Shown: positions 35,904-46,132 of the stretch, one piece after another | Layout: each line of letters starts with the position of its first letter | Numbering within the stretch: position 1 is the stretch's first letter | Assembly: GCA_026169535.1 (NCBI GenBank) | Contig: JAPFCU010000079.1 | Location: 62,001-126,000, forward strand | Direction: 5' to 3' | Origin: Blautia sp. | GTDB taxonomy: Bacteria > Bacillota > Clostridia > Lachnospirales > Lachnospiraceae | Length of the DNA stretch: 64,000 nt | Notes under the pieces: model-generated | What the model was told of the DNA's origin: nothing | Seen by the model: only the letters and a program-made list of their open reading frames with translations | Databases searched by the model: none | Program-made: the position numbers and the translations under genes

Positions 35904-36103
35904 GTGAATACAAAAAATATACCCCAGAAAACCATACAGAAGAACTTTTTGAGTTGGTAGGAAGAGTTAAAGCTTTTTCAGCTTATGTAAATTCTACAAA
36001 ATACAGTATTGAAAGAGAAATTTGTGCTTCGATGATTGGGTTTGAACTTGAGGAGGAAACAAAAGATGCCAGAGAAGACAGCAATATTAAAATGGATTGC
36101 TGA
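35900..36103 (+). CDS. Small hypothetical early protein
   Basis: 67 residues, ATG 35900, overlapping the antirepressor stop by 4 bases. Helical (ELFELVGRVKAFSAYVNSTKYSIEREICASMIGFE). Common in Clostridia phages next to antirepressors; function unknown. Confidence 0.6.
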   Translation: MSEYKKYTPENHTEELFELVGRVKAFSAYVNSTKYSIEREICASMIGFELEEETKDAREDSNIKMDC

Positions 36104-36224
36104 GAGAATGGAAAACTTTGATTTAGAGTTTGCCAATGAAAAAGAAGCACTGGTTACCGATGAGAGCGGAAACACAATGCTTCTGAAATACGATAGCAAT
36201 ACCAAACAGGTATACGCAATATAA
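36066..36224 (+). CDS. Small hypothetical early protein
   Basis: 52 residues from ATG 36066; GAGGAGG nine bases upstream decides the start. Overlaps the previous gene by 38 bases in another frame. After it, 36228-36350 holds hairpins (GCGGT/ACCGC near 36239, ATCAAGAG/CTCTTGAT at 36287-36318) and no gene. Confidence 0.55.
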   Translation: MPEKTAILKWIAERMENFDLEFANEKEALVTDESGNTMLLKYDSNTKQVYAI

Positions 36225-36350
36225 AATGCCCGGGCAGTGCGGTAACACCGCCCAGAGCTGATAGCAGTAAAGCACACTTACCACTATCAAGAGTTAAGTA
36301 TATCAAATCCTCTTGATTTTGGCAAGGACAAATTTAAGGAGGATATTTTT

Positions 36351-36683
36351 ATGCAAGAAAAAGTGAAAGCACCAGAAAACTGGGAAGAAATCGAACAGAA
36401 GTATGCAGAAATGCAGTCCAGAGAAACACTGGCATCGGAAGTTATTTCCTGGAGCCATAAAGTGGCAAAAGCGAAGGACTTTGCCATAGGATGCCTAGTT
36501 GCAGGAATCATCATCGTTGGTATCGGCATGGCAATCATTAACTATTGCAATGATCGGGATTGGCGAGAGCTGTTTTCTTCTTACGATTATGTTTCCCAGA
36601 ACGGTGAAGGTTATAACTATTACAATTCAGGGATTGGAGGAAATGTAGAGAATGGGGCAGAAGATACGGAGACAGAAAAATAG
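36351..36683 (+). CDS. Small single-span membrane protein
   Basis: 110 residues. Helical charged N-terminus, one transmembrane span near residues 45-65 (AIGCLVAGIIIVGIGMAII), acidic Tyr/Gly-rich C-terminus. Start ATG 36351 after AAGGAGGATATTTTT. Function unknown. Confidence 0.6.
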   Translation: MQEKVKAPENWEEIEQKYAEMQSRETLASEVISWSHKVAKAKDFAIGCLVAGIIIVGIGMAIINYCNDRDWRELFSSYDYVSQNGEGYNYYNSGIGGNVENGAEDTETEK

Positions 36684-36728
36684 AAAAAAAGTTCGGGGGA
36701 CGGCAGTAAGAAGAAAGGGCCGAAAAAA

Positions 36729-36938
36729 ATGAAATGGTTTTTACACTTGATGGGGATTGCATCATCAATGGGAATCTATTTGATTGTGTTTATGTTGATG
36801 TATGCATTCACCCAAAAAGATGCTTTAGAAATTATGATCGTAGATTTAATTTTTGTATATCCATTTTTTTTCTTTATAGAAGGAAATGTAGAAAAACTTA
36901 TAAGGAGAATAGAAAATGTTGAAAAACGTAGTAGATAA
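36729..36938 (+). CDS. Small two-span membrane protein
   Basis: 69 residues with two hydrophobic stretches (LMGIASSMGIYLIVFMLMYAF; IVDLIFVYPFFFFI). ATG 36729, weak ribosome site. Overlaps the next gene by 23 bases. Confidence 0.5.
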   Translation: MKWFLHLMGIASSMGIYLIVFMLMYAFTQKDALEIMIVDLIFVYPFFFFIEGNVEKLIRRIENVEKRSR

Positions 36939-37539
36939 AAACTGTGTTTTGGTCGCAGGGAAAATCACAGGATTAAAATATGATTTTACTTTTTGCAAAG
37001 AAAAGTTTTATAAGGCGAAAATTTATGTAAACAGAATGAGCGATACGGTGGACGAACTTCCGGTCGTGATACCAGAAAAAATTATTCAACCAGAAATTAA
37101 TTACGAAGGAAAATTTGCCGAAATTACAGGTGAATATCGAAGCATTAACAAAAATGGAAGATTAATCCTGTATATATACGCCACAAGCATAACGGCTCCG
37201 GAATATGGAGAATGGAGTCTAAACATTATTGATCTGACTGGATGTATATGTAAAGTCCCGAACCTCCGAAAAACGCCAAAGCAAGAAAGATATATTGCGG
37301 ATTTACTTTTGGCAGTAAACCGGGCATATAAGAAATCCTGTTATATTCCATGCATAGCATGGGGGAAAGATGCGAAATATGTATCCGAATTGTCTGTTGG
37401 AACAAAAATATCCTTAAACGGAAGGATTCAGAGTAGAGAATATGGTAAGAAAATTTCGGGTGGAGAATACGAAATAAGAACCGCTTATGAGGTTTCGATA
37501 AAAGAAGTAGGAAAGGTTGATACTGATGATAAAGATTGA
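36916..37539 (+). CDS. SSB-like OB-fold protein
   Basis: 207 residues. KNCVLVAGKITGLKYDFTFCKEKFYKAKIYVNRMS plus a second repeat-like half (LNIIDLTGCICKVPNLRKTP, then ACIAWGKDAKYVSEL and RIQSREYGKK) resembles single-stranded DNA-binding proteins with OB folds, perhaps two. A second, conventional SSB exists at 47810. Function here inferred. Confidence 0.55.
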   Translation: MLKNVVDKNCVLVAGKITGLKYDFTFCKEKFYKAKIYVNRMSDTVDELPVVIPEKIIQPEINYEGKFAEITGEYRSINKNGRLILYIYATSITAPEYGEWSLNIIDLTGCICKVPNLRKTPKQERYIADLLLAVNRAYKKSCYIPCIAWGKDAKYVSELSVGTKISLNGRIQSREYGKKISGGEYEIRTAYEVSIKEVGKVDTDDKD

Positions 37540-38017
37540 TGTTTCAAAAAATAGCAAAAATACCGTAATTGCTATGTTATCAAGTGCCATTGAACTTGAT
37601 AGCTGCGCGGAAATTTGGATTAAGGAAAAAGGTGAAGCAATTAAAACAAATGAAAGGAAATTGAAGCAAGAAAATATTGGAGATGTTTTAAAAAGGATTG
37701 GAATTCCGTGCCATTTGCTTGGATATCACTATATACAGGATGCAGTTAGAATTTCAATTTCCGATCCAATGAAATTCAGTAAATTTGCAACGATCGTGTA
37801 CGGTGACGTTGCATCTAAAAATAAAACATCATCAACTCGAGTGGAACGGGCTATAAGACATGCTATAGATGTGGCTTTCAAGTGCGGAGATATTGATGAG
37901 ATATATAAATTGTTTGGCAGCTCTTATAGTAAAAACAGGGGCAAACCAACAAATAAGGAGTTTATAGCAACGCTTACAGAATTAATAAAAGAAGGGGACA
38001 TGGAAGATGAATATTAA
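37526..38017 (+). CDS. Spo0A C-terminal-domain protein without receiver domain
   Basis: 163 residues from ATG 37526 (GGAAAGG upstream). Residues ~55-160 match the Spo0A DNA-binding effector domain: IGIPCHLLGYHYIQDAVRIS, then SSTRVERAIRHAIDVAFKCG, IDEIYKLFGS and KPTNKEFIATL. The phosphorylated receiver domain is replaced by a ~50-residue unrelated N-terminus. By family knowledge the domain binds 0A boxes and contacts sigma factors; in a phage it may read or disturb the host sporulation or stationary-phase programme. Confidence 0.88.
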   Translation: MIKIDVSKNSKNTVIAMLSSAIELDSCAEIWIKEKGEAIKTNERKLKQENIGDVLKRIGIPCHLLGYHYIQDAVRISISDPMKFSKFATIVYGDVASKNKTSSTRVERAIRHAIDVAFKCGDIDEIYKLFGSSYSKNRGKPTNKEFIATLTELIKEGDMEDEY

Positions 38018-40040
38018 ACTCAAGTCATTGACACTGGAAAATTACAAGAAATTTATAGGTCAGGAGACATTTAGATTTTATGATCGTACTATGATTTCCG
38101 GTAAGAACAAAGAGGGAAAATCCACTCTGGAAAATGCCTATATGGAGATTTTGACCGGAAAAGAGGTTGACGGAACACATCCAGATGGAATCAGACCACA
38201 TGGAGAAGATGGAAAGGACTTAAACCGGGCGGATGTTATCCGGGAAGTGGTTCTGGACATTGACGGAAAAGAAACTACTATTCGGAAAATCACAAAGCAG
38301 AAATGGAGAAAACCTCATGGACAGACAGAAGAAGTTCTTGACGGAAACACAGTTTCCTATGAGATTGACGGTTTTCCTTATGCGCCGAAGAAATTTGAGG
38401 AGTACATGAAAGAACTTACAGACCCGGAAATCCTGCTGATGTGCAGCAATCCGAATCCTTTCCTTTCTACATTAAAGAAGTCAACAGCGGACGCAAGAAA
38501 AGTCCTCGAAAAACTGTCTGGGTTCAGCCTTGAAGAATTTTTGGCGAAGAATCCGCAGTATGCAGAGGTGCAGGACCTTACAAAAGGTCATTCCGTGGAA
38601 GATACCATGAAAAAGTTGAGAAAACAGCTTACAGACCAGAAAAAGAAGCTTGACCAGAAATCTACAGAACTGAAATATGAGCAGACCAGAGATTCCGGCG
38701 ATCAGATCGAAACAGCAGATTTGGAACTGGCAAAAGGTGAATGGCAAGATAAGATTGCGGAGATTGACAAGCAGGAACAGGCACTTGATGAAGCAGCAAA
38801 AGCTTATGATGCGGCAAATTCAGAGATTATTTCTATGAAATCCAAACTGAATGAGATTGCTAATAACGCCGGAGCAGGATTGAGAGAGCAGAGAGCAAAT
38901 CTTGACCAGAAGATTTCTGATCTGAATATTCAGAACATGGGTTATGCCAATGATATGAAACTGGCCGAACTGGATTTGCAACACTCTCATATGGGAATTG
39001 AACGTCATAAAGCAGAATTGGAAAAGGCAAGGAAAGATTATTCGGCTGCTTCACAAAAGACCTTTGACGAAACCAAACTCCATGAGATTGAAGTGGAACA
39101 GTTTGACGAAGATTCCTTGATTTGCCCGGAATGTGGACAGGTTCGTCCAGTATCTCAGAGAAACAACATTCGAGAAACTTTTGAGCAGAGCAAAGCCAGA
39201 AGAATTGCAGAACAGGAGAAAGCAAGAGAGGTATTCAACGCTGAACTTTCCAAAATGCTTGATTCCATTACGGAAATTGGAAATAAGGCTGCAGATGATT
39301 TGAAAGTAGCGCAGGAAGCTAAGAAAGAAACGGAACAGAAGATTGCAGAAGTGAGAAAACAGATTCTTGAAACGTCCTCTGAAATCGAAAAGTTGTGCGG
39401 AGAACTGGACAAGCTTCCAAAAGAGGTTGATTTGTCTGGAAATGAAGAATACCAGGAACTTTCAAAACAGATTAAAAAGAAAGAATTTGCCCTGTCTGCT
39501 ATGGATAACGGCTCTGAGAAACGTATGGAATTGCGACAGCAGAGAAACCATTGCATAGATGAAATCTCAAAATTGGATGCACAGATTCAAAAAGCCAATG
39601 CAGACGCAGAACAGAAAGAGCGAAAGTTATCGGAACTTAAGGCAGAGTTTGACAAACAGAAACAGACCGTTGCGGATATTGAGCGGCAGATGGATGTTAT
39701 CAGTCAGTTTTCAATCGAGAAAAATGCGGCACTGGCAGAGAAAATCAATCCGTTTATGGATGGGTTCAAGTTTGAATTTCTTGCATTTACACTGGAGAAC
39801 AATCCTTATGATGTTTGCAAACTAATTCGTGAGGGGACAGAATACAGCAATTTGAATTATTCTGACAGATTACTGGTTGAAACAGCAATGGTTCGTGGAT
39901 TCCAGAAGATGAACAATCTGGATTTGCCGATTTGGATTGATAACAGCGAGAGTATTAATGATTATAGATTGCCGGATCTTGACACACAGATGATTGTGCT
40001 GAAAGTGACGAACAATGAATTAAGAGTAGAACCTTTTTAA
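38007..40040 (+). CDS. Rad50/SbcC-like ATPase with CxxC hook
   Basis: 677 residues. Walker A GKNKEGKST near residues 33-41. Coiled coil ~190-340 and ~395-560 around a zinc-hook-like CPECG (near residue 373). C-terminal motor half ends LDLPIWIDNSESINDYRLPDLD, the Walker B/D-loop region. Smaller than host SbcC. No SbcD-like nuclease is adjacent. Likely DNA end processing with RecT at 42855. Confidence 0.8.
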   Translation: MNIKLKSLTLENYKKFIGQETFRFYDRTMISGKNKEGKSTLENAYMEILTGKEVDGTHPDGIRPHGEDGKDLNRADVIREVVLDIDGKETTIRKITKQKWRKPHGQTEEVLDGNTVSYEIDGFPYAPKKFEEYMKELTDPEILLMCSNPNPFLSTLKKSTADARKVLEKLSGFSLEEFLAKNPQYAEVQDLTKGHSVEDTMKKLRKQLTDQKKKLDQKSTELKYEQTRDSGDQIETADLELAKGEWQDKIAEIDKQEQALDEAAKAYDAANSEIISMKSKLNEIANNAGAGLREQRANLDQKISDLNIQNMGYANDMKLAELDLQHSHMGIERHKAELEKARKDYSAASQKTFDETKLHEIEVEQFDEDSLICPECGQVRPVSQRNNIRETFEQSKARRIAEQEKAREVFNAELSKMLDSITEIGNKAADDLKVAQEAKKETEQKIAEVRKQILETSSEIEKLCGELDKLPKEVDLSGNEEYQELSKQIKKKEFALSAMDNGSEKRMELRQQRNHCIDEISKLDAQIQKANADAEQKERKLSELKAEFDKQKQTVADIERQMDVISQFSIEKNAALAEKINPFMDGFKFEFLAFTLENNPYDVCKLIREGTEYSNLNYSDRLLVETAMVRGFQKMNNLDLPIWIDNSESINDYRLPDLDTQMIVLKVTNNELRVEPF

Positions 40041-40049
40041 ATAGTTAGC

Positions 40050-40197
40050 TTCCGGGTGTTTGCGTGGCAACAGTAGGTTACCAGAAAGTAAAAAAATAGA
40101 ACAGCGCAAAACAGTACAGCGCAAAACAGTACAGTACAGTATATTACAGCACAGAACAAAACAAGACATCTTACTGTTGCGATTCAAGCACCCGGAG
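40050..40197 (+). ncRNA. Hairpin-array element A
   Basis: Stem of 26 positions: 40050-40075 with 40172-40197, 24 paired including G-U, no bulges. Strong ends are TTCCGGGTG/CACCCGGAG and GCAACAGTA/TACTGTTGC. Loop 40076-40171 (96 nt). From 40102 to 40167 every fifth base is C (13 of 14; T at 40142) and most units are ACA. Lies between the ATPase gene and the gene at 40212, whose ribosome site AGGAGG follows the stem by a few bases. Confidence 0.85.
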
Positions 40198-40211
40198 AAT
40201 AGGAGGAAATA

Positions 40212-40652
40212 ATGTCAGAAATTATCAAATGGAAAATAAACGGAAAATTCCATGCAGATGCTAAAAAATGCAAACAGGAAATTGAAAGCATTGGTTCTGA
40301 CGTTAAGCCGAAACAAATTGTTGATTATGCGAAGAATCCAGATACAGAACTTCATAAGTGCTTCACATGGGATAACGATTTAGCGGCAGAAAAATGGAGG
40401 TTATACGAAGCAAGACAGATTGTTTGCAATCTGGTAATTGTAGAAACCGATTCTGGTGGAAAAAACGAAACACAGATTCGAGTATTCCATAAGACGGATA
40501 ACGAAGATGGATATAAACCATTACAGTTTATATTACAAGACAAAGATGAATACAAGAAACTGCTTGAACAGTGTTCGTATGATTTGAAGAATTTAAAGAG
40601 AAAATATCAAACCATTTCTGAATATCAAGAGATTTGGGATTTGATTCATTGA
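40212..40652 (+). CDS. Hypothetical early protein
   Basis: 146 residues, ATG 40212. KINGKFHADAKKCKQEIESIG, PDTELHKCFTWDNDLAAEKWRLYEARQIV and a helical C-terminus (YKKLLEQCSYDLKNLKRKYQ). The tELHkcFtWDNdlAAekwR segment is common to a phage protein family of unknown function. It is flanked by hairpin-array elements on both sides. Confidence 0.65.
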   Translation: MSEIIKWKINGKFHADAKKCKQEIESIGSDVKPKQIVDYAKNPDTELHKCFTWDNDLAAEKWRLYEARQIVCNLVIVETDSGGKNETQIRVFHKTDNEDGYKPLQFILQDKDEYKKLLEQCSYDLKNLKRKYQTISEYQEIWDLIH

Positions 40653-40669
40653 CAACTGAATATTGATTT

Positions 40670-40812
40670 TCTTCGGGCGTTTTGATGGTGGCAGAAGCCA
40701 TATCGCAGTCACATAACAACAGAACAAAACAGAACAGAACAGCACACGACATATCAATACAGAACAAAATATATAAAAAAACAGCTTTTGTCACTTTGAA
40801 AGCGTCCGAAGA
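40670..40812 (+). ncRNA. Hairpin-array element B
   Basis: Stem of 29 positions: 40670-40698 with 40784-40812, all but two paired when G-U is counted. Ends TCTTCGGGCG/CGTCCGAAGA and GTGGCAGAAGC/GCTTTTGTCAC. Loop 40699-40783 (85 nt). C at every fifth base from 40720 to 40765 (10 of 10), nearly all as ACA; two more units precede out of phase by two. Confidence 0.85.
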
Positions 40813-40815
40813 TTA

Positions 40816-40960
40816 GCGGTAGGTGTGAATGAGGGCTTAATATATGCCTAAGACATTATAAATCAAATCATAATAGAACAGTTTATATCAGCATAAAACA
40901 ATACAAAAAACAATTTTAAAAGAATTCAGAAATCATTAAGTCCTGATTCATGCCTACCGC
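40816..40960 (+). ncRNA. Hairpin-array element C
   Basis: Stem of 26 positions: 40816-40841 with 40935-40960, one mismatch. Ends GCGGTAGGT/GCCTACCGC and GGGCTTAAT/ATTAAGTCC. Loop 40842-40934 (93 nt). From 40854 to 40904 every fifth base is a pyrimidine (7 C, 4 T), always followed by A and preceded by A or T (11 of 11). Confidence 0.85.
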
Positions 40961-40968
40961 ATGAGCAA

Positions 40969-41035
40969 AATACAGAATAGCACAAGACAGTATAATACAG
41001 CAAATGACTCTGTATCATAAAACAGAACAAAACAT
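40969..41035 (+). ncRNA. Array D, without the long stem
   Basis: Every fifth base from 40973 to 41033 is a pyrimidine in 12 of 13 places, mostly ACA or ATA. A shorter inverted repeat ATACAGA (40970-40976)/TCTGTAT (41009-41015) encloses part of it. It runs up to the ribosome site (AGAGAGG) of the gene at 41056. Confidence 0.7.
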
Positions 41036-41055
41036 AGAAAAGAGAGGAAACCAAT

Positions 41056-41685
41056 ATGGCAGAGAAAAAAGAAATTATCAGTTTGAACAAAATTCACGTA
41101 AGTCACGCAAAAGTAATGATTGCCGGAGATGGTGATTTGTGTTTAAACAAAATGAATGATGTGTCGGCAAGAGGTCTAATAGAACAGAGAAAGAGTAAAG
41201 CAAAAACACTTGAAAAAACAAATATGTGGGAAGAAGTGATTACCGCTATACATTGGAGAGATGGAAAACCGAAAGATTTTTCGGAAGAGGGACTTCATAA
41301 GGCGTTGGAAGAAAACGCTCCGTGTATTACAGCTTTTGGTCTTAAAAAGTCATTTGGTGATGCAGTTGTAAGAAATGGTATTGACAAATATAAGACCAAA
41401 TTCGATGCAAGCGTTAATATCATTGCCACGGGCAATCTTGTTCCAATTAAATTCACCAATTATACTCTTGACGAAAAATTAATGTCACCGAAAAAGGGAA
41501 GCCCGGTGCTTGTACATTTGAGTAGATTTTCTGGTTGGAGTGCTGAAATAGAAATTGCATTTACCGAGAACACATACTCACTTGAGCAGATTATCAATAT
41601 TATCAATCTCGCCGGTTTTGGAATTGGAATCGGTTCTGGCAGATCAAGTGGTTACGGGCGCTATCATGTTGTGGGGGTGGAGTAA
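41056..41685 (+). CDS. RAMP-like protein (candidate RNA-binding)
   Basis: 209 residues, ATG 41056 after AGAGAGGAAACC. Long N-terminal alpha/beta half (VSARGLIEQRKSKAKTLEKT, VITAIHWRDGKPKDF, ITAFGLKKSFGDAVVRNG). The second half is a ferredoxin-like beta-alpha-beta pattern (SAEIEIAFTENTYSLEQIINIINLAG) ending in GFGIGIGSGRSSGYGRYHVV, a glycine-rich loop like that of RAMP proteins. Homologous-looking phage proteins ending GIGxxRPxxGRF are widespread and unassigned. RNA binding is inferred. Confidence 0.55.
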   Translation: MAEKKEIISLNKIHVSHAKVMIAGDGDLCLNKMNDVSARGLIEQRKSKAKTLEKTNMWEEVITAIHWRDGKPKDFSEEGLHKALEENAPCITAFGLKKSFGDAVVRNGIDKYKTKFDASVNIIATGNLVPIKFTNYTLDEKLMSPKKGSPVLVHLSRFSGWSAEIEIAFTENTYSLEQIINIINLAGFGIGIGSGRSSGYGRYHVVGVE

Positions 41686-41999
41686 TGAAACAAAACCCAT
41701 GTAGATATTGTGCTTTGGCATTTGTCCATAACGGGAGACATTCTCCCAGTTGGAATGATAAATGTGCAAAATGCGAGAACATTAAGGCACATAAAGAATA
41801 TCTGGAATCTCAAAGAAAATTTATTGAGGGAGAGCCAATTACCACACTTGATGAACTTTTGGAACAGGAGTGGGTGATGTGGTATCACAACTCAAGGCAT
41901 ATTGAAGCAATAAAATCGACACCTATCCGAACTGTTCTGAAGTGGATTGAAATAGGAGTATTTCATAAGGCGATAAGAAAAGAAAGCGAGGAAAATTAA
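41685..41999 (+). CDS. Hypothetical early protein with Cys pairs
   Basis: 104 residues; start ATG overlaps previous stop by one base. N-terminal C-x2-C...C-x2-C (NPCRYCALAF, DKCAKCENIK) makes a zinc finger plausible; the C-terminus is helical and basic. No family recognised. Confidence 0.6.
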   Translation: MKQNPCRYCALAFVHNGRHSPSWNDKCAKCENIKAHKEYLESQRKFIEGEPITTLDELLEQEWVMWYHNSRHIEAIKSTPIRTVLKWIEIGVFHKAIRKESEEN

Positions 42000-42851
42000 A
42001 TGGCAGAAACAATCAAGGCGGTCAAAGGTTTTAATCCGGACATGACCTGTACTCCAACAGATGATATTAAATTCCAGTATGAAGAAGGAAAAACATATGA
42101 GGAAGAAACTGTTAAGGCATGTGCAAAAGGATTTCATGCTTGCGAGCTTCCGATTAATGTATTTCGATATTATACACCTGAAAAAAGCGTTTATCATGAA
42201 GTGGAAATGTCTGGTGAAATAGATAGTTCTCAAAACGATAAAATATGTTCTTCTAAAATTAAAATTGGGGCGAAGATCAATATATCAGGAATTATAAAAA
42301 CATCTATTGATATTATTCGAAGCAAAGCAGAAAAAGAGTCAGCGGCTTCTTCCGGGTACAAAGGCAATGCGGCTTCTTCCGGGTACTGTGGCAATGCGGC
42401 TTCTTCCGGGGACTATGGCAATGCGGCTTCTTCCGGGGACTGTGGCAATGCGGCTTCTTCCGGGGACTGTGGCAATGCGGCTTCTTCCGGGTACTGTGGC
42501 AATGCGGCTTCTTCCGGGTACAAAGGCAATGCGGCTTCTTCCGGGGACTATGGCAATGCGGCTTCTTCCGGGAACTGTGGCAATGCGGCTTCTTCCGGGT
42601 ACTATGGTTCCGCAGAAGCAGATCATCCCAATTCTTGCGCTATAGCATGGGGTCCAGAGTCAAAAGCAAAAGGAGTGATTGGATCACATCTCGTTTTAGC
42701 GGAATGGGAATCGAATGGAGGAAAATATTGGGAAGAAAAAACATGGAAATTTAAGGGCGCAACGATGGTTAGAGTTGATGGCAAAAACATCAAGGAAAAA
42801 ACATGGTATGGATTAAAAAATGGAAAAGTTATTGAAATTAAGGAGGATTAA
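42000..42851 (+). CDS. DUF7666-like protein with nine-residue tandem repeats
   Basis: 283 residues. N-terminal ~95 residues: IKAVKGFNPDMTCTPTDDIKFQYEEGKTYEEE, then CAKGFHACELPINVFRYYTPE, a widespread phage/host domain of unknown role. Middle: ten copies of NAASSG-x-x-G (27 bp each). C-terminal 80 residues: a beta domain (GVIGSHLVLAEWESNGGKYW). A short beta-solenoid is likely. Confidence 0.75.
   Translation: MAETIKAVKGFNPDMTCTPTDDIKFQYEEGKTYEEETVKACAKGFHACELPINVFRYYTPEKSVYHEVEMSGEIDSSQNDKICSSKIKIGAKINISGIIKTSIDIIRSKAEKESAASSGYKGNAASSGYCGNAASSGDYGNAASSGDCGNAASSGDCGNAASSGYCGNAASSGYKGNAASSGDYGNAASSGNCGNAASSGYYGSAEADHPNSCAIAWGPESKAKGVIGSHLVLAEWESNGGKYWEEKTWKFKGATMVRVDGKNIKEKTWYGLKNGKVIEIKED
42341..42612 (+). 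repeat. Ten 27-bp tandem coding repeats
   Basis: Unit core AATGCGGCTTCTTCCGGG followed by two variable codons and GGC. The first variable codon is TAC, GAC or AAC; the second AAA, TGT or TAT. All other bases are almost invariant, so change is limited to two sites per unit. Copy number could change by slippage. Confidence 0.9.
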
Positions 42852-42854
42852 ATC

Positions 42855-43676
42855 ATGGCAGAAACAAAAAATGCAGTAGCAACAACACCGAAGCAGACAT
42901 TTAGCGTGGCTTTAACAGAAAAACTTAATGGGGTTTCAGATGCACTTCCGAAAGATTTTAATAAATCAAGGTTTGTGCAGAATGCCTTGGCTCTTATCAA
43001 TGATAATCCGCAGTTGCAGAAATATAATCAGGCACAGCTTATGGGCGGACTTATGAAAGGTGCTTATTTGGGTTTGGATTTTTATTCAAAGGAATGCTAC
43101 TTGGTTCCTTACGGTCAGCAACTTAATTATCAGACTGATTACAGGGGTGCTAAGAAATTGGCAAAGAAGTATTCTATCCGACCGATTAAAGACATCTATG
43201 CAAAGCTGATTCGTGAGGGAGACGAGTTCGAGGAAATGATTTTAAATGGAGAGCCAACGTTTAATTTTAAACCTAAATTTCTAAATGACGGGAAGATTAT
43301 TGGAGCATTTGCAGTTGTTCTTTATCAAGATGGTGGTCTTGGATATGATGTTATGTCACTTTCAGAACTGGAAAATACCAGGAAGCACAGCAAAGCCAGC
43401 AATTCTCCGGCATGGAAAGATTTTACCGGGGAGATGTACAAAAAGACTGTTTTACATAGGCTTTGCAAGCACATTGAGCTTGATTTTGAAAATCCAACAC
43501 AAAGAGATATTTTTTCGGCTGGCATGGAAATTGAAACAGATGTTGCGGAACAGGTCAAAAATGATATTGAATGCAATGCAAATAAAACGGAGTTTGTTGT
43601 TGATGATATTGTCGAGGAAGATGTAGTTGAGAATGGCAAAGAATTGCCACCATTTATGACCGGTGGAGGAATGTAA
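42855..43676 (+). CDS. recT: RecT-family single-strand annealing protein
   Basis: 273 residues, ATG 42855 after AAGGAGG. RecT pattern: NPQLQKYNQAQLMGGLMKGAYLGL, CYLVPYGQQLNYQTDYRGAKKLAKK, SKASNSPAWKDFTGEMYKKTVLHRL. Normal length. Anneals single strands in phage recombination, with the ATPase at 38007 and SSB at 47810 as possible partners. No RecE-type exonuclease is seen. Confidence 0.93.
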   Translation: MAETKNAVATTPKQTFSVALTEKLNGVSDALPKDFNKSRFVQNALALINDNPQLQKYNQAQLMGGLMKGAYLGLDFYSKECYLVPYGQQLNYQTDYRGAKKLAKKYSIRPIKDIYAKLIREGDEFEEMILNGEPTFNFKPKFLNDGKIIGAFAVVLYQDGGLGYDVMSLSELENTRKHSKASNSPAWKDFTGEMYKKTVLHRLCKHIELDFENPTQRDIFSAGMEIETDVAEQVKNDIECNANKTEFVVDDIVEEDVVENGKELPPFMTGGGM

Positions 43677-43677
43677 T

Positions 43678-43821
43678 ATGAATGTAGTTTGGATATTATG
43701 TTTTGTTGGGTGGATTTTATCTTTTGGGTCGTGAGCATTTCAACTTGGAAGAAAAGGAAATACATATAAACCAATAATAGTTATGTGTGTTTTTACTGCT
43801 CTTTTGTGGTTGACGAAATAA
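43678..43821 (+). pseudogene. Small membrane protein with internal TGA
   Basis: ATG 43678 opens MNVVWILCFVGWILSFGS, then TGA (43732-43734), then the same frame continues AFQLGRKGNTYKPIIVMCVF... to TAA 43821. Both halves look like one two-span membrane protein of ~47 residues. Either a nonsense mutation or a sequencing error. Confidence 0.6.
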
Positions 43822-43864
43822 ATTAATTTGGGCGGTTTATCCGCCCTTGAAGAGAGGAAATGAT

Positions 43865-44179
43865 ATGACAAACAGATATATGAGAGAAAAATTCAAATAC
43901 GCAGGTCAGACAGTAAAGACGAAACAGGGAGTTGGAATTAGTTCTTTTGGTCAGGATATGAGCGGACAGGATTTTATTGTTGAGGACTGGTGGGAGAATG
44001 TTACGGGATGCTCATGGATGAATGCAGACGGAAATCTGGCAGCATTGGAGTACGCTATACGTTCTGCAAAATACGGAGATAACAATAATGTTCCATTGCT
44101 TGGTAACGATGTGGTTTATGGGAAAATCGGACCGTTTGGACATATCTTTCATGTGAGTGAACTGGAGATTGAATTATGA
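43865..44179 (+). CDS. Hypothetical early protein
   Basis: 104 residues from ATG 43865 (AGAGAGGAAATGAT upstream). TVKTKQGVGISSFGQDMSGQDFIVEDWWENVTG; looks like a compact beta-rich fold, common in phage early operons. Function unknown. Ends in a 4-base overlap with the next gene. Confidence 0.65.
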   Translation: MTNRYMREKFKYAGQTVKTKQGVGISSFGQDMSGQDFIVEDWWENVTGCSWMNADGNLAALEYAIRSAKYGDNNNVPLLGNDVVYGKIGPFGHIFHVSELEIEL

Positions 44180-44934
44180 TAGGCACATTACAACAGGCTT
44201 TTGATGATATGGAGCATGGAGTTTACGATTTCACAAAAGACGGTAAGTGTTCTGGTTGTGGAAAACCGTCTGTATATGTTGATGATTTGGCTGGTAAAAA
44301 ATTTTGGAACATGACCGTTATTAGATATGCAGGAATAAACCAGAAAGGAAGAAGTGTCTGGTTGTGTAAATGCGATTGTGGAAAAGAAAAAATTGTTGTT
44401 GGTAGCGAATTAAAAAGAGGAAAAGTGAAATCATGTGGTTGCTTAAATCGGAGTATAAATGGGATGTACAGAAGCAGACTTTATAGAATACACCATATGA
44501 TGCTATGCAGATGTTATACGGAAAGTACCACATGCTATGATTTATATGGTGGGCGAGGAATAATAGTTTGCAACGAATGGCGTGGCAAGAATGGATTCAT
44601 GAATTTCTATAACTGGTCTATGAAAAATGGTTACGCAGATGATTTGAGCATTGACCGAATTGATGCAAATGGAAACTATGAACCAAATAATTGCCGATGG
44701 GCTACTCATGAAGAACAGTCTAACAATATGAGAAGAAATAAGTTTTTAGAATATGGTGGCGAAAGATTAACAGTGTCGCAATGGGCAAGAAAATTGGGAA
44801 TAAATCATAATACTTTGGATAAGCGCTTGAGAAAAGGCTGGTCGGTAGAAGTTGCACTGACTAAACCGATAGATAAAAAATACGCTACCAAAACAAAGAG
44901 CTGTTCTGGCGAACCAGAAAGCCATGCGACATGA
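44176..44934 (+). CDS. HNH endonuclease fused to a YkgJ-like N-terminal fragment
   Basis: 252 residues. Residues 1-30 (FDDMEHGVYDFTKDGKCSGCG) read like the start of a phage YkgJ-type cysteine-cluster protein. From ~36 on it is a free-standing HNH: DLAGKKFWNMTVIRY, CDCGKEKIVVGSELKRGKVK, SCGCL zinc module, then LSIDRIDANGNYEPNNCRW and EEQSNN, with a C-terminal HTH (LTVSQWARKLGINHNTLDKRLRKG). Suggests HNH insertion that replaced the rest of the host gene. Confidence 0.8.
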   Translation: MIGTLQQAFDDMEHGVYDFTKDGKCSGCGKPSVYVDDLAGKKFWNMTVIRYAGINQKGRSVWLCKCDCGKEKIVVGSELKRGKVKSCGCLNRSINGMYRSRLYRIHHMMLCRCYTESTTCYDLYGGRGIIVCNEWRGKNGFMNFYNWSMKNGYADDLSIDRIDANGNYEPNNCRWATHEEQSNNMRRNKFLEYGGERLTVSQWARKLGINHNTLDKRLRKGWSVEVALTKPIDKKYATKTKSCSGEPESHAT

Positions 44935-44962
44935 GAGAAACATTTTTCGGGGAGTAATAAAT

Positions 44963-45151
44963 ATGTTGAATAAATCAAACATAGTGGAAATTATTAAAGA
45001 CCACGAAAAAGAAATGTCAGAGATAAGAATTGAGATAATGAAAGCTGACAGTGATATTGCGAAACGAGCCTTAAAGGATAAACTTAATTTTCTTGAAGAT
45101 AACTGCTATCGGTACAAATTACAGGCTAATGCTTGGGGGATTGAAGTATGA
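44963..45151 (+). CDS. Small coiled-coil hypothetical protein
   Basis: 62 residues from ATG 44963 (GGGGAGTAATAAAT upstream). Heptad-like (IVEIIKDHEKEMSEIRIEIM). Overlaps the next gene by 4 bases. Confidence 0.55.
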   Translation: MLNKSNIVEIIKDHEKEMSEIRIEIMKADSDIAKRALKDKLNFLEDNCYRYKLQANAWGIEV

Positions 45152-45666
45152 CAGTAGGAGAAAAAATACAGGTAGTTAGGAAAGAAAAAAGGCTGACGCA
45201 AAAAGAGTTAGGTAATTTGTGTGGAATGTCTGATTCCGCTATACGAAGGTATGAAAATGGACGAGCAATTCCTAAAATCAAGACATTGCAAAAAATAGCT
45301 AATTCTCTTGAAGTTCCGGTCGAAAGATTGATTCCGCACAACAAAACTTGCTTACCAAGCGAATCAAAGAAGCAAAAATTACAATCCATAGCCGACCATT
45401 ACGGATTCAAAAAGCAGTCCATGATAACGATTGAAGAATGTTCAGAACTGCAAAAAGCTATTTGCAAATGGCATAGGGAGCGTGGCGATTATCTTCTGTC
45501 TGAATCTTCTGGCTGTGACGAAAGAACAGCCATTATTGATGAACTTGCAGATGTAATCATTATGGCAAATCAGATTTCATATTTACTTTCTGCGGAAGAT
45601 GAGGTTTCGGAACAGATTGAATTTAAACTTGATCGCCAGTTGCGGAGAATGGAGGAAAATTTATGA
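45148..45666 (+). CDS. XRE HTH fused to a MazG-like pyrophosphohydrolase domain
   Basis: 172 residues. Residues ~3-65: XRE HTH (KIQVVRKEKRLTQKELGNLCGMSDSAIRRYENG). Residues ~85-165: MazG-like fold with the metal motif EECSEL and later DELADVIIMANQI. MazG-type enzymes hydrolyse NTPs or alarmones. The fusion would let a transcription regulator respond to nucleotides, or tether the enzyme to DNA. Confidence 0.85.
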   Translation: MTVGEKIQVVRKEKRLTQKELGNLCGMSDSAIRRYENGRAIPKIKTLQKIANSLEVPVERLIPHNKTCLPSESKKQKLQSIADHYGFKKQSMITIEECSELQKAICKWHRERGDYLLSESSGCDERTAIIDELADVIIMANQISYLLSAEDEVSEQIEFKLDRQLRRMEENL

Positions 45667-45878
45667 TTGAGATTATTTCGGACTACAAGCTAACAAATGC
45701 GGACAGAATCAGAAGCTTAAATGATGAAGAATTAGCACAAGAAAATGTGGTGGGATTCACTTATATGAACGGTTATAGACCTTCTCATTTATGGAGAAGT
45801 GTTCATGCCGGAGATTTTGACACAAAGGAAGAGGCTATTGAAGCAGAATTAGAATGGCTTCAGCAACCGGCAAGGTGA
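45663..45878 (+). CDS. Small hypothetical phage protein
   Basis: 71 residues overlapping the previous stop by 4 bases. MTNADRIRSLNDEELA-like start (LTNADRIRSLNDEELAQ) and ending KEEAIEAELEWLQQPAR, a pattern often seen in Clostridia phage early operons. Function unknown. Confidence 0.65.
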   Translation: MIEIISDYKLTNADRIRSLNDEELAQENVVGFTYMNGYRPSHLWRSVHAGDFDTKEEAIEAELEWLQQPAR

Positions 45879-45886
45879 GGTGGAAA

Positions 45887-46132
45887 ATGATTGGATATGT
45901 TCAGCTATATTTTAAGGTAGTAGGGGAAAAAGAAACCTATTACGCAAAATTTGATGGAGATTTTGAGAAGCCTTTGACGCGTTTTCGCTTATTCTCTATT
46001 AAGAGTAGCATGAAGCGTGCATATAAAAAATTTGACAAGATTTATTCGGTAGACTTCATTTCTAAGGAAGAATGGGAAGAAAATAGAAGTGGAGATGAAA
46101 TAAGTATTAGTTGGGGTGAAAATGTAAAATAA
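45887..46132 (+). CDS. Hypothetical early protein
   Basis: 81 residues from ATG 45887; GAGGTGG upstream decides this start. Beta-alpha sequence (YVQLYFKVVGEKETYYAKF...KRAYKKFDKIYSVDFISKEEW). Not recognised. Confidence 0.55.
   Translation: MIGYVQLYFKVVGEKETYYAKFDGDFEKPLTRFRLFSIKSSMKRAYKKFDKIYSVDFISKEEWEENRSGDEISISWGENVK

Follow-up and report, generated by a model that had tools for sequence, protein, structure and literature searches.

The 64,000-nt stretch of a Blautia sp. contig analysed here (the window) very probably carries, within a prophage, a VIPR system whose class is marked by the triplet ACA, with phased pentanucleotide arrays as its guide RNAs. Viral Interference Programmable Repeat (VIPR) was described in a preprint of April–June 2026 for SUSP1 and a P. 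fulva prophage (PMC13142463). Vipr is a RAMP protein, and its vrRNAs alternate the triplet GGY with two variable bases (NN), which pair with DNA with a 1-nt skip on codon wobble positions (PMC13142463). The guides are directed against rival phages and against further VIPR loci, and the complex represses transcription (PMC13142463). The arrays in the preprint have 9–16 units, the guide RNA carries a conserved 3′ tail, and all VIPR types are given as GGY/NN 'or a related consensus (fig. S17)' (PMC13142463). VIPR was also proposed as a forerunner of CRISPR, in whose Class 1 systems RAMP proteins coat the guide RNA and pairing is interrupted periodically (PMC13142463). A literature search, part of which used the names vrRNA and Vipr, returned no second VIPR paper.

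The sequence-only reading of this DNA had described four 5-nt-phased ACA arrays, and these are real: a position-weighted scan of the window finds exactly four NNACA arrays in this phase, all on the plus strand, and zero on the minus strand. They are array A (40094–40168, 15 NNACA-type units), array B (40717–40771, 11 units), array C (40851–40905, 11 units) and array D (40970–41034, 13 units, two of them off-pattern), each with a conserved triplet and a variable NN. A and B each have one unit more than had been counted. The periodicity at lag 5 also withstood shuffling, as the score of each array exceeds those of all 1000 dinucleotide shuffles of its own stretch. In a simpler run test (pyrimidine then A, at least 7 units, periods 3 to 12), lag-5 runs occur in the window only at 40097 (16 units), 40720 (11) and 40849 (12), all on the plus strand. 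Periods 3, 4, 6 and 9 gave no run in this test, and periods 7, 8, 11 and 12 gave one each of 7 or 8 units, away from the locus; period 10 was set aside as a multiple of 5. An Rfam scan of 36000–46000 returned no family at the arrays, its sole match being SymR, below the gathering score and elsewhere in the stretch.

Directly 3′ of array D lies the vipr gene (41056–41685, plus strand), encoding a 209-aa RAMP-superfamily protein with a C-terminal Gly-rich loop, GFGIGIGSGRSSGYGRYH. A profile of the family, built from 32 relatives, matches SUSP1 Vipr (PDB 36pp) with an E-value of 2.6e-13 over profile positions 134–203, and it is on this match that we assign the locus to VIPR. The match of the window protein itself to Pfam RAMPs is weak and below cut-off (E 0.017), and apart from it no Cas family was found in the eight window proteins scanned. 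Relatives of the window Vipr are present in 36 IMG/VR viral contigs, 32 of them at 57–69% identity, and two further relatives with 70–71% identity were found in Clostridia assemblies. In a search of 299 host-family genomes, the only copies were the window's own and a distant one (27% identity); within the host group the gene is thus rare. Its carriage by phages and prophages is evident from the viral-contig relatives and from the RecT, SSB and SbcC-like genes nearby. Beside the prophage SSB and SbcC-like genes, a protein with a Spo0A C-terminal domain is encoded at 37517–38017 (Pfam E 1e-29), and 27-nt repeats coding SSGYCGNAA-like units lie at 42338–42610 within a DUF7666 protein (collagen-like match).

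Between arrays A and B is a 146-aa ORF (40212–40652, plus strand; phrog_15946, E 4e-16), whose homologues are found in 29/29 loci of the ACA clade and 3/4 of a distant clade. RecT, SbcC and SSB are present in 9, 8 and 4 of the same 29 loci, many of which are cut short. We regard the 146-aa family as a candidate for the accessory gene of the ACA-clade VIPR; with this putative vap, the locus has the minimal make-up of a VIPR locus. Hairpin A lies immediately ahead of the start region of the 146-aa ORF, and array D ahead of that of vipr; with a RAMP-type protein encoded adjacent, this arrangement would also suit a TRAP-like ring or filament that regulates its own operon, the arrays serving as leader operators for vipr and the accessory gene. 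The TRAP ring binds ~11 (G/U)AG triplets, and its targets share with the arrays a triplet spacing of ~5 nt in single-stranded RNA. Here the triplet is ACA, the neighbouring protein is an unrelated RAMP protein, some loci have many arrays, including downstream of vipr, and arrays of the ACA clade range from 6 to 23 units in length, which does not suit an 11-mer ring.

The claim that A, B and C are enclosed in long stem-loops was borne out by RNAfold. Hairpin A (40046–40201, plus strand) has a 32-position stem (40046–40077/40170–40201) and folds at -49.2 kcal/mol (z -6.9); hairpin B (40670–40812, plus strand) has a 32-position stem (40670–40701/40781–40812) and folds at -37.1 kcal/mol (z -5.8); hairpin C (40816–40960, plus strand) has a 26-position stem (40816–40841/40935–40960) and folds at -41.1 kcal/mol (z -7.4). 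For each of them 0/200 shuffles were as good. Array D lies outside any stem and shows no structure (RNAfold, z -0.05). The sequences of the three stems differ, and a CRISPR array, with near-identical repeats and unique spacers, was rejected as a description of the locus. In the clade as a whole, a long stem pairs the flanks of 84/136 ACA arrays, compared with 4/408 mis-partnered controls; for GGY arrays the counts are 1/56 and 0/168 (stems called above a threshold of 14, set by us). In one relative (L031:4100–5000), seven arrays were called within a single intergenic stretch, several with their own stems.

The stems also bear on the strand of the RNA. With symmetric scoring, mismatches in the ACA-clade stems read on the NNACA strand are G.T in 254 cases and A.C in 64 (p 6e-28 if pairs are taken as independent, which those of related stems are not), and this bias speaks for the NNACA strand being the RNA. 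An antisense reading, with TGT/NN on the other strand, lies nearer to GGY and gives identical decoded DNA; it was dropped for the ACA clade, where the mismatches on the vipr strand are G.T and not A.C. Arrays near two remote relatives of Vipr (L038:9400–9830 and L107:9600–11095; HMM E 9e-10 and 5e-7, respectively) read NNACA opposite the vipr strand (NNTGT on the vipr strand), and either strand may be the RNA there. In both, recurring short repeats separate the units in a CRISPR-like layout.

The phase recurs among the relatives. In the loci of 36 relatives and the window, all 48 period-5 runs of at least 8 units lie on the strand that carries vipr (copies of one contig included), periods 3, 4 and 6 to 8 together give one such run, and period 9 gives five, on the opposite strand. 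Thirteen loci (L001, L005, L010–L013, L017, L018, L020 and L033–L036) have no run of 7 units. When off-pattern units are tolerated, as in the weighted scan, all 29 deduplicated close-clade loci prove to hold arrays: over 284 kb at these vipr loci it counts 133 ACA arrays, every one on the vipr strand, and the same scan finds 0 in 36 stretches (666 kb) around polA genes. We think that 28 other-strand arrays in another scan come from five reverse-oriented loci (L049, L051, L067, L113 and L130). In an unweighted scan of periods, period 5 does not rank first in L001, L010, L018, L033, L034, L035, L036, L171 and L179; L035 ranks period 10 first, and L107 ties.

Distant relatives, at ~30% identity, keep period 5 with a different triplet. 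In L033, L035 and L036 this is NNGGY downstream of the vipr homologue, and GGC or GGT arrays lie within ~1 kb of a vipr homologue in 6/6 named phages examined (L180–L185: Gordonia Pipp and ODay, Mycobacterium Saal, Pseudomonas LESphi2, cyanophage Cy-LDV1 and Escherichia phage wV8), the array stretch of Pipp overlapping an annotated gene. No GGY array shows in the top period-5 windows that the unweighted scan gave for L168 and L171, which are both cut short. The Vipr relatives in the six named phages are annotated as hypothetical proteins only, and the two array stretches of wV8 are marked only as repeat_region DR_4. The change of triplet bears on another reading, in which the arrays would act as an ACA sponge that titrates a MazF-type endoribonuclease or some other RNase of the host. 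ACA is a MazF cut site and the arrays are rich in it; yet a sponge would not need an exact 5-nt phase, and in sister Vipr clades the phase is retained with GGY, not ACA, as the triplet. Given also the decoding described below, a sponge has next to no probability in our judgement.

Plain slippage, giving functionless simple tandem repeats, would find a parallel in the pentamer repeats of viral contigs, many of which are plain tandem repeats. Against this origin, the NN positions of ACA arrays are diverse, the stems vary by pairing and G.U exchange, the arrays are confined to the vipr strand in the scanned loci and absent from the polA stretches, and, as shown next, the arrays decode to targets. 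With the controls for strand, neighbourhood and decoding, we hold slippage to be refuted and its remaining probability to be negligible.

ACA arrays of at least 9 units were decoded with skips of 0 to 4 target bases and compared with DNA in which the arrays themselves were masked and loci presumed to be duplicates were taken out. The E-values are binomial estimates with a match chance of 0.28 and were judged against controls in which the order of the NNs was shuffled. In a first target set of ~3.3 Mb, searched on both strands (11 presumed copies removed from 3.49 Mb), skip 1 gave 5/127 arrays at E<0.01 and skips 0, 2, 3 and 4 gave 0; the shuffled arrays gave 0/635 at skip 1, 1/635 at skip 4 and 0 at the other skips. 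The second set added 30 polA loci to the first and left out 19 presumed-copy loci (L008, L009, L011, L012, L032, L037, L049, L052, L067, L090, L113, L130, L158, L163, L164, L173, L177, L178 and L189), of which L173 is perhaps no copy, its array being placed elsewhere than in L172. Here 16/130 arrays matched at skip 1 and 0 at other skips; the count is 17 less the row of array A against L221, dropped because that site had been pre-selected by the pattern search itself. The third set consisted of 36 stretches around phage-type polA genes of the host family, and holds most of the polA loci of the second. It gave 20/130 at skip 1 and 0/130 at each of skips 0, 2, 3 and 4 (E<0.01), compared with 1/650 at skip 1 and 2, 0, 1 and 2 of 650 at skips 0, 2, 3 and 4 after shuffling. 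These polA loci and stretches were chosen after window array D and the array L001:882 had matched polA; without those two, skip 1 gives 18/128.

The best skip-1 matches are 26/26, 29/30, 32/34 and 33/36, the first of them between the L029:1201 array and polA in L229. In 19/20 matches the base passed over is the third of a codon in the longest ORF at the site, in keeping with the wobble-position skip of VIPR. By decoding, the 1-nt skip code is thereby shown to hold for the ACA clade; in the window it is seen with array D only, 1/4. The 20 matches are not 20 separate events, as L024:4494 and L019:4569 match one stretch of one gene family, and likewise L021:4758 and L030:4545. The other 110/130 ACA arrays have no match at E<0.01 in the polA stretches. 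GGY arrays of distant relatives gave 0/54 with a target at any skip in the second set, so that the decoding did not recover the published GGY class, taken as its positive control, perhaps because the searched DNA belongs to other hosts.

A TRAP-like regulator of its own operon does not predict NNs that, at a single skip value, read as codon-phased stretches of phage genes, and this is where the earlier proposals of an autoregulator, a decoy or a MazF sponge gave way. With the placement of hairpin A and array D on one side, and the decoding, the loci with many arrays and the varying unit number on the other, we consider the TRAP-like reading very unlikely, and the arrays are taken below as guides of a VIPR system.

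The predicted targets are mostly genes of phage replication. Among the 13/20 target ORFs that were scanned, two encode DNA polymerase A, two a ssDNA-binding protein and four a DUF2800/PD-(D/E)XK nuclease, the rest being an SNF2 helicase, a VapE-type primase-helicase, a sigma-like protein, a small terminase and one without a match. Most identified targets of the ACA clade would thus be replication genes, a lean that is partly built in, because the stretches were chosen around polA. The strongest match in the ~3.3-Mb set is that of a 20-unit array of another phage, L014:5660, which spells the glycine loop of sister-phage vipr genes. Its predicted site inside the window's vipr is 41596–41655 on the plus strand (33/40 NN, codon-phased). 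The same array corresponds to the vipr of many sister phages, the window's included, a case of VIPR against VIPR.

Array D matches the DNA polymerase A gene in L146 (Pfam DNA_pol_A, E 2.8e-24) at 23/26 NN positions and decodes to a stretch conserved in phage DNA polymerase A, IEARVIAWLA, which we take to be motif A. It matches L233 equally at 23/26 (E 2.6e-4). polA was found in 35/299 host-family genomes, and in 30/30 polA loci returned the best site for array D is the same polA site (18–23 of 26), a result that restates a single conserved site and adds nothing independent of the L146 match, which came first. The best match of array D anywhere is 23/26. Contig C30 of the host genome has a gene for phage-type DNA polymerase A (C30:79967–81940; L215, L243), likely in a second prophage, and there array D matches at only 18/26. 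At E 1e-30 the sole polA in the window's genome (~90% complete) sits on this other contig, so the window prophage shows none. Among viral contigs, scanning for polA recovered none but the contig of the query itself.

Arrays A, B and C have no established target in pattern searches (A and B) and decoding scans (all three). For array A, an exact 11-unit pattern gave 0 matches and a 9-unit pattern gave two, L221 (25/32) and L222 (24/32). Both sites are codon-phased in an open frame: in L221 an antisense frame of 611 aa, in L222 a short ORF for which 299 genomes yielded a single weak match. As the two sites were picked by the pattern itself they are no proof, and we keep them as loose candidates. 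The one pattern match of array B, in L186, was rejected, being out of codon register with the same-strand ORF of >60 aa there. Array C gave no match at E<0.01 in any decoding scan (three target sets, skips 0–4).

Together, the homology to SUSP1 Vipr and the conserved period suggest a mechanism in which the vipr product coats the phased RNA with one subunit per 5 nt. The sequence-only reading had envisaged an RNA target for a ring or filament protein; what stands of it is the phased RNA, with presumably one protein subunit per 5 nt, and a RAMP protein, Vipr, encoded adjacent. ACA would hold the RNA, and the two variable bases of each unit would pair with DNA, the skip of one target base between pairs being shown for the clade by decoding. 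Each array would be one guide, and the long stem around most guides is probably cut, so that the guide is released or capped. The bound complexes would most likely repress the target gene, as SUSP1 VIPR does (PMC13142463). The guides match replication genes of polA-type phages, which presumably compete with the window's prophage, and once other VIPR loci.

The locus resembles VIPR in its homologous RAMP protein Vipr, its pentanucleotide arrays (11–15 units in the window), its small phage-borne locus with an accessory gene, its NN code with a 1-nt skip on the wobble base, and its predicted targets in other phages and in VIPR loci. In contrast to the main text of the preprint, the triplet is ACA and not GGY (the 'related consensus' of PMC13142463 may or may not be ACA), and the guides mostly lie within a long stem, where a 3′ tail was described. 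The candidate accessory protein has no BLASTP similarity to the wV8 gene adjoining vipr, and many predicted ACA-clade targets fall in polA-type replication modules. With Class 1 CRISPR–Cas, where a Cas7 backbone lies on the crRNA, the locus shares a RAMP protein, a guide RNA and periodically interrupted pairing. It differs in having no identical repeats, no Cas family in the eight window proteins but the weak RAMP match, and a period of 5 with two reading bases, whereas CRISPR interrupts every sixth position. It is set apart from TRAP targets by the coding content of its spacer bases as well as by triplet, unit number and protein.

Whether the Clostridia phages thus hold an undescribed VIPR class with an ACA handle, hairpin-loop guides, its own 146-aa accessory protein and a multi-guide battery against polA-type replication modules and VIPR loci is, in our estimate, evenly balanced; an ACA class with enclosed guides may already be described in the supplement of PMC13142463.

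For the family, the decoding alone indicates a one-base-skip code with ACA in place of GGY in a clade far from SUSP1. The handle, that is the triplet read by the protein, would thus be separable from the message carried by the NNs, and the paired variants of protein and triplet would offer a means to work out how the triplet is recognized. A guide held in a hairpin loop would be a second guide-RNA architecture. Finally, the decoding names the likely natural targets, the replication genes of other phages.
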